Source: Legionella drozanskii LLAP-1
GTDB taxonomy: Bacteria > Pseudomonadota > Gammaproteobacteria > Legionellales > Legionellaceae
Assembly (NCBI RefSeq): GCF_001467585.1
Contig: NZ_LNXY01000020.1
Location: forward strand, 452,466-495,334
Length of the DNA stretch: 42,869 nt
Direction of reading: 5' to 3'
Shown here: positions 34,846-42,869 of the stretch, in pieces
Layout: each line of letters begins with the position of its first letter
How positions within the stretch are numbered: the first letter of the stretch is position 1
The notes under the pieces: generated by a model
Told to the model about the DNA's origin: nothing
The model's database searches: none
Seen by the model: only the letters and a program-made list of their open reading frames with translations
Program-made: the position numbers and the translations under genes

Positions 34846-37362
34846 ATGATAAAAAAGCTGTCATGGAGCAATATATTAATTACCCTTAGTTTATTACTAT
34901 GGTCGGGTTTTTTTGTTTTACAATTTGTTAAATTTCAAGATGCAAATAAAATTAGTTATTTTGCAGCCAATATTGAGTTTATTTTACATGGCTTTACTCT
35001 ATTTTTATTTGCACTGATTTACAAAAAAACCTATTTACCCAACAAGAAAATATTGTCTTGGCTATTGGTAAGCCTAATTGGCCTTTTTTTGAACGACATA
35101 ATTTTTTACTATGTAATTTATTTACAAAACAATTATATTGCTCGGCTTTCTTCCTTAGATTTTTTATTAGATATGTCACCTTTTTTTATTTGGGTGACGG
35201 CAATAATTATTTTTTTCTACAAAATATTGAGAATCACCTTTGAATTAAAATATTTTTATAAAATTTTATCAGTTTTTATGATTTTAAATGCCACAGTAAT
35301 TTTTGTATGTTTTTCCTCTATTAATTATGCGACTTACACTATCACATGGCAGAACGTACTCCAATTTTTTGGATATATTGCCGAATCCTTTGTTTTCGAA
35401 CTAGCTATTTTATGTTTAATATTCTCTAAAAACAGAGGATTGTCATGGATTGCCACAGGTTTCGCCATCCTGATATCGGGCGATTTTTTCCTTACGTACA
35501 CCCATTTAACACAAACAGATAATACACTTGGGATCCATGGGGAATTATTCTGGTTTTTGGGTATGTTGTTTATTTTGATTGGCATTTATGATTTCAAACA
35601 TAACGAATCCAAAGCAATTGATTGGCTCAAAGAGGCACATTCAATTAAACATATTTTTGCGTTTTGGACATTTCGAGTATCATTATTAAGCACACTGCCA
35701 GCTATTATTTTAGCTTATTATTTTCTACCTATTAGTAAAGAATTATTTTTACTTTTGCCTCCCATACTAATTCTATATTCTATTGTACTTGTTAGTTTAT
35801 CCCTCTTAAACGGTCACCAGTTAGAGATTCCATTTAAACAGCTTGAGACTAATATCGATGCATTAATGCTGAAACAAGATAAAAGTCAGGTAAATGGTCA
35901 TTTTTCGATAAATGAATTTATTTTTTTACAAAAATTTATTAATCAAGCGGCGATAACTATAGAAGAAAAAGATAAAGCTAAACAAACTTTGCTTTACTTA
36001 TCATCTCAAGTTGCGCACGATATTCGGTCACCTCTCGCAGCCATAAACACAGCTATTTCTGATGTAAGCTCAATTCCTGAAAAAAAACGTATTATGATTA
36101 GGAGTGCAGCTAAAAGAATTAATGATATAGCTAATAATTTACTCTTAACGTCAAAAAATAATGTTTTGCCTTCACAGGAAAACATGGAGAATGAATTTCC
36201 TGAATTAATATTTGTTGTTTTAGACAATATCGTCGCAGAAAAACGATATGAATATTATGGTACAAACATACAGATTAATTTAGTAGGAAATGATTCCTCA
36301 TTTAATTGTTTCTCAAATGTACATCTAGCTTCTTTTAAATGTGTACTTTCTAATTTAATTAATAATGGAATTGAAGCTCTTGATTCTGAGGGTTTTATTA
36401 CAATTTACTTAAATTGTAATAAAACCCATGTTGAGATTATTATTGAAGACAATGGCTGCGGAATTCCTTCACATATTTTGCCCAAAATAACTCAGCCAGG
36501 TTTTAGTTTCAATAAAAAAACCGGGGCAGGTTTTGGTTTGGCACACGCAAATCAATATTTAAATCAATTAAAAGGGACAATGAATATTGATTCGCAGGAG
36601 AATATAGGCACAAAAATTACAGTTAGACTCAATCGCTCCCAGCCCCCTATATGGTTCTGCGATCAAATTAAAATAAAGCATAATATAAATATTGTAATAT
36701 TGGATGATGAACCATCTATTCATGATTCCTGGGAGGATAGATTCGAATCTTTTCCTACCGTCAATATAATCCATTGCTATAGCGTCACAGAACTATTGAA
36801 AAATAATATTTCCAAAGTGAATCAATTGTATTTGATTGATTACGAGCTAGGCACTTATGATCAAAGTGGTTTGGATGTTATTGAAGAGTTAAATTTAACT
36901 GATAAAGCGATTTTAGTAACAAGCTGTTTTGAAGATATTAACATTCGAAAACGCTGCGAAGTTATTGGAGTCCAAATTATTCCAAAAGCTTATGTGCCCT
37001 ATACTAAAATAATGCCTTTTTCAAACAACGAACCTCAAAGTAATTTTGTTTTTATTGATGACGATGAAATGATGCGAACCACTTGGAGATTCGCGGCTGA
37101 GGATGCTAAACAAACAATATCAACATATTCTTCCTTTGCTGATTTCATTAATGAAATAGATAGTTATAGCAAAAACACTGTTATTTATATTGATTCAGAT
37201 TTAGGAAATAACGTTAAAGGGGAGGAATGTGCAAAATATTTATTTGATAAGGGCTTTACCAAAGTTCATCTTTCCACTGGCCACTCAAAAGATCAATTTA
37301 AAGATATGCCTTGGATAAAAACTATTGTTAGTAAAGAGCCGCCTTTTATAATATCTGGGTGA
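34846..37362 (+). CDS. Membrane hybrid histidine kinase with two receiver domains
   Basis: An 838-aa sensor kinase. About nine membrane segments fill residues 8-325 with little extracellular domain. The HisKA box is VAHDIRSPLAAI (H391); the ATPase domain has the N-box (LINNGIEAL), DNGCGIP and GAGFGLA. Two receiver domains follow: the first with DDE and D665 (LYLIDYELG), the second with DDDE and D783 (VIYIDSDLG). Each ends with a lysine (PKAY, SKEPP). The gene has no clear ribosome-binding site and is probably coupled to the acetyltransferase. Its ligand and output are unknown. Confidence 0.9.
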   Translation: MIKKLSWSNILITLSLLLWSGFFVLQFVKFQDANKISYFAANIEFILHGFTLFLFALIYKKTYLPNKKILSWLLVSLIGLFLNDIIFYYVIYLQNNYIARLSSLDFLLDMSPFFIWVTAIIIFFYKILRITFELKYFYKILSVFMILNATVIFVCFSSINYATYTITWQNVLQFFGYIAESFVFELAILCLIFSKNRGLSWIATGFAILISGDFFLTYTHLTQTDNTLGIHGELFWFLGMLFILIGIYDFKHNESKAIDWLKEAHSIKHIFAFWTFRVSLLSTLPAIILAYYFLPISKELFLLLPPILILYSIVLVSLSLLNGHQLEIPFKQLETNIDALMLKQDKSQVNGHFSINEFIFLQKFINQAAITIEEKDKAKQTLLYLSSQVAHDIRSPLAAINTAISDVSSIPEKKRIMIRSAAKRINDIANNLLLTSKNNVLPSQENMENEFPELIFVVLDNIVAEKRYEYYGTNIQINLVGNDSSFNCFSNVHLASFKCVLSNLINNGIEALDSEGFITIYLNCNKTHVEIIIEDNGCGIPSHILPKITQPGFSFNKKTGAGFGLAHANQYLNQLKGTMNIDSQENIGTKITVRLNRSQPPIWFCDQIKIKHNINIVILDDEPSIHDSWEDRFESFPTVNIIHCYSVTELLKNNISKVNQLYLIDYELGTYDQSGLDVIEELNLTDKAILVTSCFEDINIRKRCEVIGVQIIPKAYVPYTKIMPFSNNEPQSNFVFIDDDEMMRTTWRFAAEDAKQTISTYSSFADFINEIDSYSKNTVIYIDSDLGNNVKGEECAKYLFDKGFTKVHLSTGHSKDQFKDMPWIKTIVSKEPPFIISG

Positions 37363-37371
37363 ATATAGAGT

Positions 37372-37599
37372 ATGAACACGAATGAAAAAAATAAATTAAA
37401 GCATGATCTTTTGAATGCAATTGTTATCATAAATAGCATGACGAAATCCGCATCAAATTTTTTTAATCAGGCTTCTATATCTAAGGATGGCAATGTTCTT
37501 AATCAAGAACAGAAAGATAAATTTTTATATGCCATGAGCACAATACGCGCTCAAACCGAAAAAATAGAGAATTACTTTCAAATTCTGCTAAACCAATAA
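37372..37599 (+). CDS. 75-aa phosphotransfer-like protein
   Basis: A small, all-helical protein. The start KLKHDLLNAIVIINSMTKS (H11) resembles the H-box helix of HisKA dimerisation domains (x-H-D-x-x-N), and the second helix (AMSTIRAQTEKIENYFQ) could complete a two-helix hairpin, as in stand-alone DHp or Hpt proteins. No ATPase domain is present. It follows the hybrid kinase after 9 bases and overlaps the convergent response regulator by 12 bases. A phosphorelay shuttle between the two is an attractive inference. Confidence 0.6.
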   Translation: MNTNEKNKLKHDLLNAIVIINSMTKSASNFFNQASISKDGNVLNQEQKDKFLYAMSTIRAQTEKIENYFQILLNQ

Positions 37600-38604
37600 C
37601 TCTTCGATACCACGTCTCTCTTTGATATAGGAGGAGTAAGAGGTTACCTTTCCCCAATCTATTGCATCTGTTGAATAATTTTGAGTAATACTGTAATAAT
37701 AACTATCATCTAGTTTTCTTGCGTCAAATAAATATTTGAGCCAATCATCTATAGGTTTTTTATATTCTTTTTCCGTTAATAGAAAAAGAATCTGTTCCTT
37801 ATTAGTAACTGAAGTCCTGGTTGGTGCAGGTAAATCATACCCATCTAATAAATCTATTTGATCTTTCAATTCATCCTTATGTCTTATAATAAGCCAGGTA
37901 TCTTTAGCATCTTTATCAAGAAAAAGAATACTTCCTGAATTATCAACTAGATAATACTCAATTGCCTGCGCTTGTACAGCGACCTGGGCAAATAATTTTT
38001 GGTAGGGAACATTATCAGATAAAATATTAACTAGGCTTGCATGCCCATTGACTATGCTCTTTGATAACTCTTTAAAATAACGCTGGGTAAGATCGTGTAC
38101 CGCTAATGCAAGCTCTGAATGCAAATTTTTGTTTGTTTTGAGTATAAATTTATCAATAAGACCGTTATTGAATGCTTCAATAACAGTATCTTTATCTGCT
38201 TCAGCAGTTAACATAATTTTATAACTTTTATTCCCTTTAATTTTTTTGCATAACTCTATTCCATTAATTATTGGCATTTCATAATCTACAACTAACACAG
38301 GTGTATGTTCAAATCTTCCTTTATCATAAATTAATTCCAATGTTTTGCTGATATCAAAGCCTAGAATTCTATAATCTCTAGCGTCTACATTATCATCAAT
38401 AATTGGTTTATATAGCGAACGGGTAGTGTCTTCGCTATATTTATTAATTATCTCCAATGCTTTATCTGGACTTGTTAGTGTAAGTAAATTAAATTTTTCA
38501 TCAAACTCTAACTTTATTGCATCTAAAAACTCTTGGTTGTCATCTAAAAAAATTATTTTAGTTGGATGATAAAAGCATGTTGGATCTTTATCGACAATAT
38601 TCAT
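37588..38604 (-). CDS. Response regulator with an insertion in its receiver domain
   Basis: A 338-aa response regulator. Receiver signs: acidic pair D21-D22 (IIFLDDNQEF), phosphoacceptor D107 (LVVDYEMP), MLTAEAD and a lysine in FILKT. The pair-to-acceptor distance is about 85 residues against about 45 in CheY, so some 40 residues are inserted between the first strands. The C-terminal half (about 160-338) is unfamiliar: no DNA-binding, GGDEF, EAL or HD motif. AGGA lies 8 bases before the ATG. It is convergent with the kinase cassette and overlaps the 75-aa gene by 12 bases. Confidence 0.8.
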   Translation of the reverse strand: MNIVDKDPTCFYHPTKIIFLDDNQEFLDAIKLEFDEKFNLLTLTSPDKALEIINKYSEDTTRSLYKPIIDDNVDARDYRILGFDISKTLELIYDKGRFEHTPVLVVDYEMPIINGIELCKKIKGNKSYKIMLTAEADKDTVIEAFNNGLIDKFILKTNKNLHSELALAVHDLTQRYFKELSKSIVNGHASLVNILSDNVPYQKLFAQVAVQAQAIEYYLVDNSGSILFLDKDAKDTWLIIRHKDELKDQIDLLDGYDLPAPTRTSVTNKEQILFLLTEKEYKKPIDDWLKYLFDARKLDDSYYYSITQNYSTDAIDWGKVTSYSSYIKERRGIEELLV

Positions 38605-38828
38605 CTAGTGATTCCTGTATTTTATAAAAATAATTATTTAGTTTTATTTATAGTCGCCTTGTTAAATCAAAATCCAATTATAAAATATATCACTATCCTC
38701 TTCTTTGATCATAATTTTTTTACAATCTTAGAAAGCCTCAATAAGAGCATAATATAAACATGCTTATATTAATATTCTTATAGCAACCCTGCAATCGCTT
38801 GGGGGCCTCTCGCGAGCACTCCGCTATC
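38605..38828. other. Intergenic region between response regulator and repeat array
   Basis: 224 bp, AT-rich, with no gene seen. It should contain the minus-strand promoter of the response regulator. Its right end (38807-38828) is a degenerate 22-bp unit (about 13 of 22 bases agree), so the array once reached further left. Confidence 0.45.
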
Positions 38829-39378
38829 TATTTGCTAGCACAATACTATCTATTTGCTATCATTATGCAATGTATTTGCTATCATTATGCAATGTATTTG
38901 CTAGCATTATGCAATGTATTTGCTAGCACAATGCTGTCTATTTGCTATCATTATGCAATGTATTTGCTAGCGCCCTACTATCTATTTGCTAGCGCCCTAC
39001 TATCTATTTGCTAGCGCCCTACTATCTATTTGCTAGCGCCCTACTATCTATTTACTAGCGCCCTACTATCTATTTACTAGCGCCCTACTATCTATTTGCT
39101 AGCGCCCTACTATCTATTTGCTAGCGCCCTACTATCTATTTGCTAGCGTCCTACTATCTATTTGCTAGCGTCCTACTATCTATTTGCTAGCACAATGATG
39201 TCTATTTGCTAGTGTCCTACTGTCTATTTGCTAGCACAATGATGTCTATTTGCTAGTGTCCTACTGTCTATTTGCTAGCACCCTACTATCTATTTGCTAG
39301 CACAATGATATCTATTTGCTAGCACAATGATATCTATTTGCTAGCACAATGATATCTATTTGCTAGCACATTATTATT
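38829..39378 (+). repeat. Array of 25 tandem 22-bp repeats, candidate partition site
   Basis: Twenty-five units in perfect 22-bp register. Each starts TATTTGCTAGC (with A for G or T for G in a few) and ends in an 11-bp variable half. Halves fall into a few types: GCCCTACTATC or GTCCTACTATC (units 7-16), ACAATGATATC or ACAATGATGTC (17, 19, 22-24), ATTATGCAATG (2-4, 6), and mixed. Length equals two helical turns, so protein would bind one face of DNA. It lies 240 bp upstream of parA. The core also occurs around parAB. Iteron-like replication control is the alternative role. Confidence 0.85.
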
Positions 39379-39619
39379 ATTACCGAAGAATAGATTGCTT
39401 AACTTCCTAATTTGTAAGCTGCTGCAAAACAAGTACTTAATTAAATAAATTTATAAATTACAATTATGAGAATTTGTTTCACTTAAAATAATATTTATCA
39501 GTTTTTACAATCTCAAACACAGTAAATGCCCTTCAAAATATATTGCAATTTGCTAGCATAATGATAGCATTAAGCAATCAATTTGATATCATTTCATAAT
39601 AATAATATTGGAGATATAT
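39379..39619. promoter_or_regulatory. parAB promoter and operator region
   Basis: 240 bp between the array and parA. TGCTAGCATAATGATAGCA (39551-39569) is a near-perfect dyad with the array core, and CAATTTGATATCATTTC (39579-39595) recurs exactly at 40599-40615. These are likely operators for autoregulation of parAB. No clean -35/-10 pair stands out. Confidence 0.55.
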
Positions 39620-40261
39620 ATGATAATTTTAATTGGAGGAGAAAAAGGCGGCACAGGTAAAACGACTTTGGCAACAAATATAGCTGCTACCTTTGCCATA
39701 AAAGGGGATGATATTCTTTTAGTGGACACGGATCCACAAAAGACAGCCAGTTTTTGGTCTTTAACAAGAGATGAAAAAAATATTCTTCCACGTGTAACAA
39801 CAATTCAAAAATTTGACAACGTTAAACAAGAAATATTGGCTTTAAAAAATAAATTTGACCATATAATTATAGATGCAGGTGGAAGAGACTCCTTGGAATT
39901 ACGAACAGCTCTTCTTGTTGCTGACAAAGCCTTTTTTCCTCTTAGAGCATCTCAATTTGATCTTTGGACACTGGCAAAAATTAACAATCATGTTAGTGAT
40001 GCTAAAGCAATAAATGAAAACCTTCGCGCTTTTGTTCTAATTAACCAATCCTCTCCAAATCCTTCTGTCAAAGAAAGTGATGAGGCATCAGTGTACCTTG
40101 AAGATTTTGAGGAGCTATCAGCACTCAAAACTAAGATTGCGGAAAGAATTGCTTATAGAAAAGCTGCAATTCAAGGATCTTGTGTGCAGGAACTTGATCC
40201 TGAAGATAAAAAAGCGACAGCAGAAATTCTTTCTTTTTATGAGGAAATTTTATATGTCTAA
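39620..40261 (+). CDS. parA: ParA partition ATPase
   Basis: A 213-aa ParA/MinD-type ATPase without the N-terminal DNA-binding domain of larger ParAs, so of the short (type Ib-like) class. The deviant Walker A is EKGGTGKTT (about residues 8-16), the next motif is LLVDTDPQKTASFW (38-51), and IIIDAGG is near 90. It should form ATP-dependent patterns on the nucleoid that position plasmid copies. Start chosen at ATG 39620, with TTGGAG 6 bases upstream, rather than a TTG inside that site. It overlaps its partner gene by 8 bases. Confidence 0.93.
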   Translation: MIILIGGEKGGTGKTTLATNIAATFAIKGDDILLVDTDPQKTASFWSLTRDEKNILPRVTTIQKFDNVKQEILALKNKFDHIIIDAGGRDSLELRTALLVADKAFFPLRASQFDLWTLAKINNHVSDAKAINENLRAFVLINQSSPNPSVKESDEASVYLEDFEELSALKTKIAERIAYRKAAIQGSCVQELDPEDKKATAEILSFYEEILYV

Positions 40262-40541
40262 TAAATCATCTTTTTCTCGTCCCCCCTTGTCACTAGAAGA
40301 GAAACAGAAAAAAGAAAAGGAATTCTTAAGTTTTGATAAAACCAAAAATGAGCAAGCCACTCCTTTAATAAAAAGAGAAAAAGAGCCTGTAAAAAGTATA
40401 TTTATAAGAGCACCTGCAAGCTTTTTAATAGACATCCATGAAATTGTAAGTTTAACTGGTTTATCAATGAATGCTGTTTGTTTGGAACTTCTCAGGCCCG
40501 CCATAAAAAGAAAACTAAAAGAATTAAAAGAAGATTTATAA
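40254..40541 (+). CDS. ParB-analogue: small ribbon-helix-helix centromere-binding protein
   Basis: A 95-aa protein: a charged, flexible N-terminus (residues 1-45, with EEKQKKEKE) and a C-terminal ribbon-helix-helix (VKSIFIRAPASFLIDIHEIV, then SLTGLSMNAVCLELLRPAIK). This is the shape of type Ib ParB/ParG proteins, in which the N-terminus stimulates ParA and the fold binds centromere repeats. Start chosen at 40254, with GAGGAA 8 bases upstream, overlapping the parA end. Likely target: the TTTGCTAGC core of the array and flanking palindromes. Confidence 0.8.
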   Translation: MSNKSSFSRPPLSLEEKQKKEKEFLSFDKTKNEQATPLIKREKEPVKSIFIRAPASFLIDIHEIVSLTGLSMNAVCLELLRPAIKRKLKELKEDL

Positions 40542-40551
40542 TTTCTAAAAA

Positions 40552-40632
40552 TAGCAATTTGCTAGCAAATTGCTAGCATCAAAACATTCTTTCGTTAGCA
40601 ATTTGATATCATTTCGCTAGCAAATTGCTATC
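40552..40632. promoter_or_regulatory. Palindromic sites with the partition core downstream of parB
   Basis: Positions 40552-40575 are a perfect 24-bp palindrome with TTTGCTAGCAAA at its centre. A second inverted pair, TAGCAATTTG (40596-40605) and CAAATTGCTA (40619-40628), follows, with CAATTTGATATCATTTC (40599-40615) repeating the sequence at 39579-39595. All share the TTTGCTAGC core of the array, so they probably bind the same protein. Confidence 0.7.
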
Positions 40633-40784
40633 AAATCAATATCATAATGCTTGCAACCCCACCAATTCGAAGTCTTGACACCATCTACCTACTATGTTTT
40701 TCTTAGCAACATAATAGAAACTAAAGTCTCAGTCTTAATTTATAAAAGGCTAATAGAAATGAAATAAAAAATGATTTGAGGAAA

Positions 40785-40949: not shown

Positions 40950-42158
40950 ATGGGGAACCTTTGTTCAATTTTTCACTCAAGATTTAAACATCTTATTAGA
41001 GTGATTCCATCAGCTCGAAAAGCGCAGTTGATGGATTATATTTTACTTGGTTGGCAAACCAGCACTTACAAATTAAAGGGCTCCGATAAGAAATGGTTCA
41101 TGAAACCTTATTCCGAAATTATCAAAGACACCGGCATTCCTGAAAGTACACTTCAGCGCTATATCAGAGAATTAACTGAGGCAGGTTTTATTGAGCGAAG
41201 ACAAGCACTTTACAGCCGCACTAAAGAAGAGGGTGCCTTTGAGGTTAAAAAAGGAAACTACATCCATATTACCGAGCAATTACTTGTCTTACTAAAACCG
41301 GAAGCCTCATCCGAAGAAGATGTATCCAATCAAACGAAAGATGATAACAACAACATTGAGAAATCGTTCCAGGAAAATCATATAGCACAGGATAAATCTC
41401 CTCAAACTAAAAGTGATGGCAATCAAAATGAGGGGATCGATTCAATCAAAATAAGGGGATCATATATAAGAGATCTTTATGGTTCTTCTCTTATTAATAC
41501 TATTACGTTTGATAAAACCTTTTCTGTGGATAAACCAACCCTTCATCGATTGACCCAATCTTTTGACTCAGTCCAACAATTTCTATCTCAAGAAGTGAAA
41601 GAAGAAGTTCCTGATTCCATCAAACAACTGGTTGCGGGGACTTTTTTCAATTTAATCTTTAAACATCGAAAGCAACTATCTTCTCCCCAACAACTGGCCG
41701 CTGAATACTTATTTGCTTTATTGAACGTTGATTTTTATCTACCTAAGGTATCTTGTTTTAAACATCGAAATAACATTTTCTCAAAAATGATTCGCGATAA
41801 CTCTTGGCGAACGCCTAAAGGGTTTTACAAGCATTTTTATTTAGGTCAATCGTTTAAAGACAAAGAAGAATTACGTGAAAAACGATGGCAACGAGAAAAA
41901 GAAAAGGAAATGAGTCAAGAGACCTATGCTTTTGCTGATATTAACGATGAACGAATTCAACGATTGGAAGCTCAAATGACAGAAAAAAGCGCTTTAATCA
42001 ATGAACTGACGAAAAGTATTTATCAGCACTCAGATGAAGAAGTAATCAATGAAATTAGAGAGCGTATTCAATTGCATCGAAGAGAGCTTGATACTTTATG
42101 GGCTGAACAACTTCGCGTTGAACAAGAGATTGAAGCAGAAGAAAAGCGCTGTGCTTAG
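40950..42158 (+). CDS. Candidate plasmid replication initiator (winged-helix protein)
   Basis: A 402-aa protein. The N-terminal 125 residues form a winged helix (ARKAQLMDYILLGWQTSTYK, then IPESTLQRYIRELTEAGFIE) like plasmid Rep and phage O-type initiators. A polar linker follows (125-180). The C-terminal part has NIFSKMIRDNSWRTPKGFYK and a long coiled coil (about 330-395). Its layout and W-x-T-P-x-G motif are shared with the protein at 32034-33056. It follows parAB and is followed by DnaA boxes, the usual setting of a rep gene. AAGGA lies 9 bases before the ATG. Role inferred. Confidence 0.65.
   Translation: MGNLCSIFHSRFKHLIRVIPSARKAQLMDYILLGWQTSTYKLKGSDKKWFMKPYSEIIKDTGIPESTLQRYIRELTEAGFIERRQALYSRTKEEGAFEVKKGNYIHITEQLLVLLKPEASSEEDVSNQTKDDNNNIEKSFQENHIAQDKSPQTKSDGNQNEGIDSIKIRGSYIRDLYGSSLINTITFDKTFSVDKPTLHRLTQSFDSVQQFLSQEVKEEVPDSIKQLVAGTFFNLIFKHRKQLSSPQQLAAEYLFALLNVDFYLPKVSCFKHRNNIFSKMIRDNSWRTPKGFYKHFYLGQSFKDKEELREKRWQREKEKEMSQETYAFADINDERIQRLEAQMTEKSALINELTKSIYQHSDEEVINEIRERIQLHRRELDTLWAEQLRVEQEIEAEEKRCA
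41525..41533 (-). promoter_or_regulatory. DnaA box inside the candidate rep gene
   Basis: TGTGGATAA is the consensus DnaA box (TTATCCACA) in reverse. The 16 bases TTTCTGTGGATAAACC at 41521-41536 recur exactly at 42328-42343. Confidence 0.5.
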
Positions 42159-42486: not shown

Positions 42487-42869
42487 ATGGTGCGAGGCGG
42501 TTTACGACCGGGTGCTGGACGACCAAAAGGGCGGGGCAAATATGGAGAACAAACCAAAGCGCTACGCATTCCTCTTTCACGTATAAACGACGTGCTGCAC
42601 TTTATTACGCATCCAAGTTTAACCTCTTATCAAATTCCGTTGTATTCAAGTACTGTAAGAGCAGGCTTTCCGTCTCCTGCTGATGATTACATCGAAGACT
42701 TTCTCGATTTAAACCACTATTTAATTAATCATCCTGCAGCGACCTTCATGGTAAGGGCCTCAGGAGACTCCATGACTGATGTGGGGATTCAATCGGGGGA
42801 TTTGCTGGTAGTTGATAGAAGCATCAACGTGACTCATGGCAAGATAGTGATTGCTGCTATTAATGGAGA
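42487..42869 (+). CDS. umuD: UmuD-type protein with N-terminal extension (partial)
   Basis: The frame runs off the window after 127 codons. The product begins [20 protein letters not shown], a basic extension seen on LexA/UmuD-like plasmid proteins, followed by the UmuD core: cleavage site A59-G60 (VRAGFPSP) and nucleophile S95 (ASGDSMTD), 35 residues apart as in E. coli UmuD. The catalytic lysine lies beyond the edge. After RecA-stimulated cleavage, UmuD' would join UmuC, whose gene is expected next, in an error-prone polymerase. The reading frame was derived directly from the nucleotide sequence. Confidence 0.85.

Follow-up and report, generated by a model that had tools for sequence, protein, structure and literature searches.

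A par locus with an upstream repeat array

The window analysed here, a 42,869-bp stretch of Legionella drozanskii LLAP-1 DNA, carries a predicted partition (par) locus composed of a parA gene, a small downstream gene encoding a 95-aa protein and, upstream of both, a proposed centromere array of 22-bp units (38829..39378, + strand). The array holds 25 consecutive contiguous units when read in register from 38829 to 39378, and Tandem Repeats Finder reported it at 38824-39369 (period 22, 24.8 copies, 87% matches, 0% indels, score 553), bearing out the exact 22-bp register described in a first-pass annotation made from the letters and their open reading frames (ORFs). Autocorrelation over the 550 bp upstream of parA, with z scores computed against 200 dinucleotide shuffles, ranked lag 22 first (z 18.0), lag 44 next (z 16.1) and lag 11 third (z 4.8), and the scores at lags 22 and 44 exclude a chance origin of the array. 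A CRISPR-like array was ruled out, as the 22-bp units are contiguous without spacers, and so was a coding array, since the sole listed ORF of at least 60 aa overlapping the repeats (38799-39014) stops inside them. A promoter scan was uninformative, with 9 promoter-like sites against 10.7 expected.

Within the units, the constant half reads TATTTGCTAGC in 18 of 25 cases and otherwise TATTTGCTATC (n = 3), TATTTACTAGC (n = 2) or TATTTGCTAGT (n = 2), while the variable half takes 10 distinct sequences that form a few related groups; 12 distinct whole units occur among the 25. The earlier description of an invariant half joined to a variable half of about four types therefore holds for the grouping, but not for the invariance or for the number of variable sequences. 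A good second half is missing from unit 25, and in units 17-20 two types alternate, giving a 44-bp period that fits block-wise duplication of units.

Between the array and the start of parA (39620..40261, + strand) lie 241 bp; the gene encodes a 213-aa short ParA-type partition ATPase identified by domain, profile and PDB matches. Its Walker-type motif begins near residue 6, with matches to AAA_31, CbiA and MipZ; as in other short ParA-type ATPases there is no N-terminal helix-turn-helix (HTH) domain, and the best PDB sequence match is ParF of TP228 (E 1.8e-12). The NCBIfam equivalog model NF041546 (ParA_partition) matched residues 3-209 of 213 with 153.7 bits, below its curated cut-off of 180, and the window ParA is a relative rather than a certified member of that family. 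The start of the next gene (40254..40541, + strand) overlaps the parA stop, and its 95-aa product is predicted to be a ribbon-helix-helix centromere-binding protein. No sequence match to ParG was returned for this protein, and neither ParG nor omega was among the structure matches listed for it, an absence that excludes nothing. Used alone as a query, the 95-aa protein (P0002) found nothing in plasmids, phages and 21 other genomes of the genus, and none of the 46 stretches it picked out in viral contigs was confirmed.

Two predicted boxes in each repeat unit

The array was scored with a symmetric model of an 8-bp box, TG[AC]TA[GT]CA, trained solely on two related par loci (L012 and L013). The model picked two of the 22 phases, separated by exactly 11 bp: the phase in the constant half averaged 10.95 bits and the one following it in the variable half 2.74 bits, with averages of -4.18 bits or less in the remaining 20. 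The strong box occupies unit positions 5-12 (TGCTAGCA type) and scored at least 5.0 bits in 25/25 units. The weak box, 11 bp further at positions 16-23, lay above the window's 99th percentile in 16/25 copies, where, because only seven distinct octamers occur, the independent observations number nearer seven than 25. Judged by these scores, each 22-bp unit consists of two 11-bp half-units, one with a strong and one with a weak predicted box. The first-pass annotation had placed the protein-binding site in the constant half, which does look like the strong box but is not alone in this, the variable half forming a second, weaker one.

On the 5' side of the array (38811..38829, + strand) two more boxes keep to its 11-bp register, at 38811 (CGCGAGCA, 7.1 bits) and 38822 (CGCTATCT, 6.6 bits). 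The same model located four boxes upstream of parA (39551..39591, + strand), a candidate operator, at exact 11-bp steps (39551, 39562, 39573 and 39584), and six downstream of the 95-aa gene (40560..40655, + strand), at 40560, 40571, 40604, 40615, 40626 and 40648, with all distances multiples of 11. Through the array and the boxes ahead of parA, repeated sites lie upstream of the operon, as in type Ib loci.

Boxes accompany related par genes

At E up to 1e-20, 10 of 140 family genomes, among them the window's own, hold relatives of parA. The five best besides the window (L012-L016) show 81 to 52% identity, and each has a small downstream gene akin to that of the 95-aa protein, which in L016 is apparently split between frames. 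Neither L012 nor L013 has a 22-bp array; 8-bp boxes in 11-bp steps flank both loci, lag 11 being the top lag of their upstream autocorrelation (z 5.4 and 7.2, respectively). Counting matches above 6 bits within 850 bp upstream and 250 bp downstream gave 31 and 6 boxes for the window, 16/6 and 21/5 for the training loci L012 and L013, and 12/7, 18/7 and 4/0 for L014, L015 and L016. L016, where the partner is 27% identical to the 95-aa protein over a 59-aa piece, shows a box peculiar to this locus, T[AG]A[CT][AG]T[CT]A, which 7/8 seeds recovered with 28-56 of 54-83 pairs in 11-bp phase; the eighth seed gave another motif, with 3/6 pairs in phase.

A further scan confirmed four of 330 candidate stretches, two of them L013 and L015 again and two new, from Candidatus Odyssella (L032, 6/2 boxes) and a gammaproteobacterial metagenome-assembled genome (L033, 1/6 boxes). 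Boxes resembling TGATATCA emerged from 3/8 seeds in L032 and 7/8 in L033, where the 11-bp phasing for those seeds is strong in L032 (10/10 to 14/14 pairs) and L033 shows partial phasing (7-45 of 31-81). The comparison with relatives supports what had been proposed at first, namely a short ParA followed by an overlapping gene for a small predicted ribbon-helix-helix protein, with the array as likely centromere. A plasmid search with ParA returned at least 5000 records, all matches listed being below 60% identity; in the five best-ranked loci (L041-L045, 44.6-50.5% identity) the small partner comes from another family and lag 11 is absent from the top six autocorrelation lags, the downstream stretch of L044 and L045 falling inside the partner gene and thus not being usable for this test.

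Genome G093 has, near a contig end, a truncated second parA (L022:1501-1722) that covers residues 1-74, is 86% identical to the window's parA and is accompanied by a copy of the box region lying upstream in L013. In genome G146, no parA was visible by eye with either of two relatives of the 95-aa protein (L052 and L053), and a phased array of boxes is absent there as well. Past the par box region of L013, an ORF that continues beyond the end of the locus (L013:3344-3637) resembles, by eye, a tyrosine recombinase fragment.

Array length among the relatives is variable. L014 and L015 carry 3.5 and 10.6 copies of 22-bp units whose sequences are unlike the window's, the second half-unit scoring as a weak box in L014 (4.9 bits) and as none in L015 (-12.1). 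L049 (genome G141) is 95.2% identical to L015 over 2,334 bp spanning both par genes and has no tandem array, with two boxes 22 bp apart at the site of the L015 array. Because L015 holds 10.6 units and L049 none, this pair, though not the window's array itself, points to gain or loss of units next to almost unchanged par genes. The earlier view that the copy number is unusual stands insofar as 25 is the most 22-bp units among the related loci examined, and is tempered by the tandem units of L014 and L015; in L012, L013 and L049 the boxes form dispersed clusters.

A neighbouring HTH gene as control

Downstream of the par pair, a candidate replication gene (40950..42158, + strand) encodes a 402-aa winged-helix protein common to Legionella and Fluoribacter plasmids, and it served as a control neighbour. 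Megablast of the region matched five plasmids (four Legionella and one Fluoribacter), of which four were scored for boxes and the fifth, NZ_CP045307.1, was left out. In pLLO, pLA01-117_113k, an L. anisa plasmid and pLD-TEX-KL the same HTH gene is accompanied by different ParA and partner genes, and the matching interval beside it contains 0 boxes in 4/4 plasmids with these other par cassettes; the box therefore goes with the par cassette and not with the HTH gene.

By eye, the L. dumoffii and L. anisa plasmids show another box, GTGAACCRTTT, at 11-bp steps (lag 11 z 7.9 and 5.2), and genes for a ParA of ~349 aa and a partner of ~240 aa adjoin such boxes in pLD-TEX-KL (L037:1-956) and the L. anisa plasmid (L036:7148-8198), apparently a convergent centromere design. 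For pLLO and pLA01, lag 11 reached z 2.4 and 2.3, and no GTGAACCRTTT-type box was noted.

Replicon context

The window (C20:452466-495334) belongs to a 3.56-Mb genome of 34 contigs and lies in a 1.05-Mb scaffold, in which 10-N gaps bound it exactly on both sides. The first part of umuD, named by likeness to plasmids, lies at 42487-42867 and is cut by the window end; by eye, the sequence preceding the left gap appears to be the initial part of another umuD copy, and after the right gap 74 exact bases are shared with the window end. In circular plasmids sharing the HTH gene, umuD and a Y-family polymerase gene follow it at a distance of one to three annotated genes; the L. anisa plasmid has the HTH gene and no umuD in the stretch shown. 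F-type conjugation genes fill the left part of the window, where six scanned proteins matched TrwC relaxase, TraD/TrwB-type coupling protein, TraG_N, TraC, TrbI and TrbC_Ftype. Given the N gaps, the second umuD and the plasmid-like HTH-umuD order, the contig is probably a conjugative plasmid that scaffolding misplaced into a chromosome scaffold at the umuD repeat. The plasmid named in the first-pass annotation is thus probable, although the contig sits between two gaps of a chromosome-sized scaffold. As the window lies in that scaffold, an integrative and conjugative element inserted at this place was also considered; it is a weak alternative, against which stand the gaps at both window ends, the absence of tRNA genes from the window and its 17.5- and 19.7-kb flanks (L025-L029 were used for tRNA and N-run checks alone) and the lack of any integrase on visual inspection of the ORF lists. 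Adjoining the array, at 34846-38604, are two genes, one for a receiver-domain-containing hybrid histidine kinase of 838 aa and the other, convergent, for a 338-aa response-regulator-like protein.

Alternative readings of the array

With the register, the two boxes per unit, the linkage of boxes to par genes and the array-size difference between two close relatives all read from sequence, the array is most probably the homogenised centromere of a type Ib partition locus, formed by a short ParA and a predicted ribbon-helix-helix protein. Iterons of a replication origin, bound by a Rep such as the 402-aa winged-helix protein and controlling replication or copy number, would suit the 22-bp length, which is usual for iterons, and the candidate replication gene, with a weak match to RP-C (E 0.0017, below cut-off), starts ~1.6 kb from the array end. 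Origin repeats would stay with the adjacent replication-type gene, however, whereas the four plasmids sharing this gene have no boxes beside it, and the par-linked boxes of L014, L015, L016 and L049 adjoin another HTH-like gene (L015 and L016 alone were scanned, giving weak HTH_36 matches below cut-off); we regard an iteron origin as very improbable.

Alternatively, the array might act mainly as an operator or titration site that binds the 95-aa protein as a repressor and sets par expression or incompatibility, with a short cluster as the centromere. Four boxes in 11-bp steps do directly precede parA, and the dispersed clusters without a long array in L012, L013 and L049 imply that a long array is not obligatory; yet the array stops 241 bp short of the parA start rather than lying over it, and the upstream position that the available text of PMC5016525 gives for type Ib centromeres is that of the arrays in the window, L014 and L015, making such a role unlikely. 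A neutral minisatellite arising by slippage beside a functional short centromere, which may overlap the operator or titration reading, would agree with the blocks of identical units and the 44-bp alternation, both pointing to recent duplication, and with near-identical par loci that have 10.6 units or no array. Neutrality nevertheless seems quite improbable when the strong-phase score is kept in every unit and when 22-bp arrays of three different unit sequences (window, L014 and L015) all lie upstream of parA.

Proposed mechanism and implications

For the favoured type Ib centromere, dimers of the 95-aa protein would bind the 8-bp near-palindromic boxes, which are 11 bp, or about one helical turn, apart. 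The strong boxes, two turns apart, would face approximately the same side of the DNA, with possible cooperative filling of the weak boxes one turn on. Once coated, the DNA would engage ParA and stimulate its ATPase, a step for which the ribbon-helix-helix proteins of type Ib loci are described as carrying an arginine finger in their N-terminal tail (PMC5016525, available text), and the plasmid would travel along the nucleoid. Autoregulation would be the role of the short box clusters that precede parA and follow the 95-aa gene; these clusters might also extend the centromere. The array itself would have originated by repeated duplication of the two-box unit.

Among the records listed in the literature searches there was no publication on this locus. 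Together with its relatives it forms a small family in which related par genes come with dispersed boxes, short arrays or the 25-unit array, opening the questions of what number of ribbon-helix-helix sites is required by a type Ib centromere and whether plasmid centromere length evolves fast, like eukaryotic satellite DNA. A bolder idea, which we advance as speculative and rather doubtful, is that of bacterial 'satellite' centromeres, in which a strong/weak unit of exactly two turns undergoes repeated amplification and homogenisation next to almost unchanged par genes and array length, not protein sequence, tunes the strength of partition or the competition among related plasmids. For annotation, a TG[AC]TA[GT]CA-like box at 11-bp steps would mark this centromere also in loci that show no tandem repeat.

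Comparison with known partition systems

The parS repeats of pCXC100 are spaced near 11 bp, and we know of no two-box homogenised unit in that plasmid; the parC repeats of R1 and pB171 are about one helical turn long, and their motor is the actin-like ParM, whereas here it is a ParA-type ATPase. In the available text of PMC5016525, the type Ib parS of pCXC100 is a centromere of direct repeats only, as is the present array, and the type II parC of R1/pB171, which acts with ParR, resembles it in having tandem repeats near the operon that are bound by a ribbon-helix-helix protein. The same text describes, for ParF-ParG-parH of TP228, a short ParA, a small ribbon-helix-helix partner (predicted in our case) and repeats upstream of the operon, with further repeats between centromere and genes (PMC5016525), all features shared by the window. 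Our locus differs from TP228 in that its 8-bp near-palindromes at 11-bp steps are homogenised to 25 x 22 bp, and in a 95-aa protein without a returned sequence match to ParG.

In the parS sites of pSM19035 (omega/delta), a ribbon-helix-helix protein occupies contiguous short repeats, at least four contiguous heptads being needed for full ParA activation (PMC9499535, available text). By analogy, phased boxes in an array would allow the predicted ribbon-helix-helix protein to coat the DNA and engage ParA, although the pSM19035 heptads are gapless and number 7-10 per site (PMC5016525), whereas the boxes here advance in 11-bp steps through 50 half-units.
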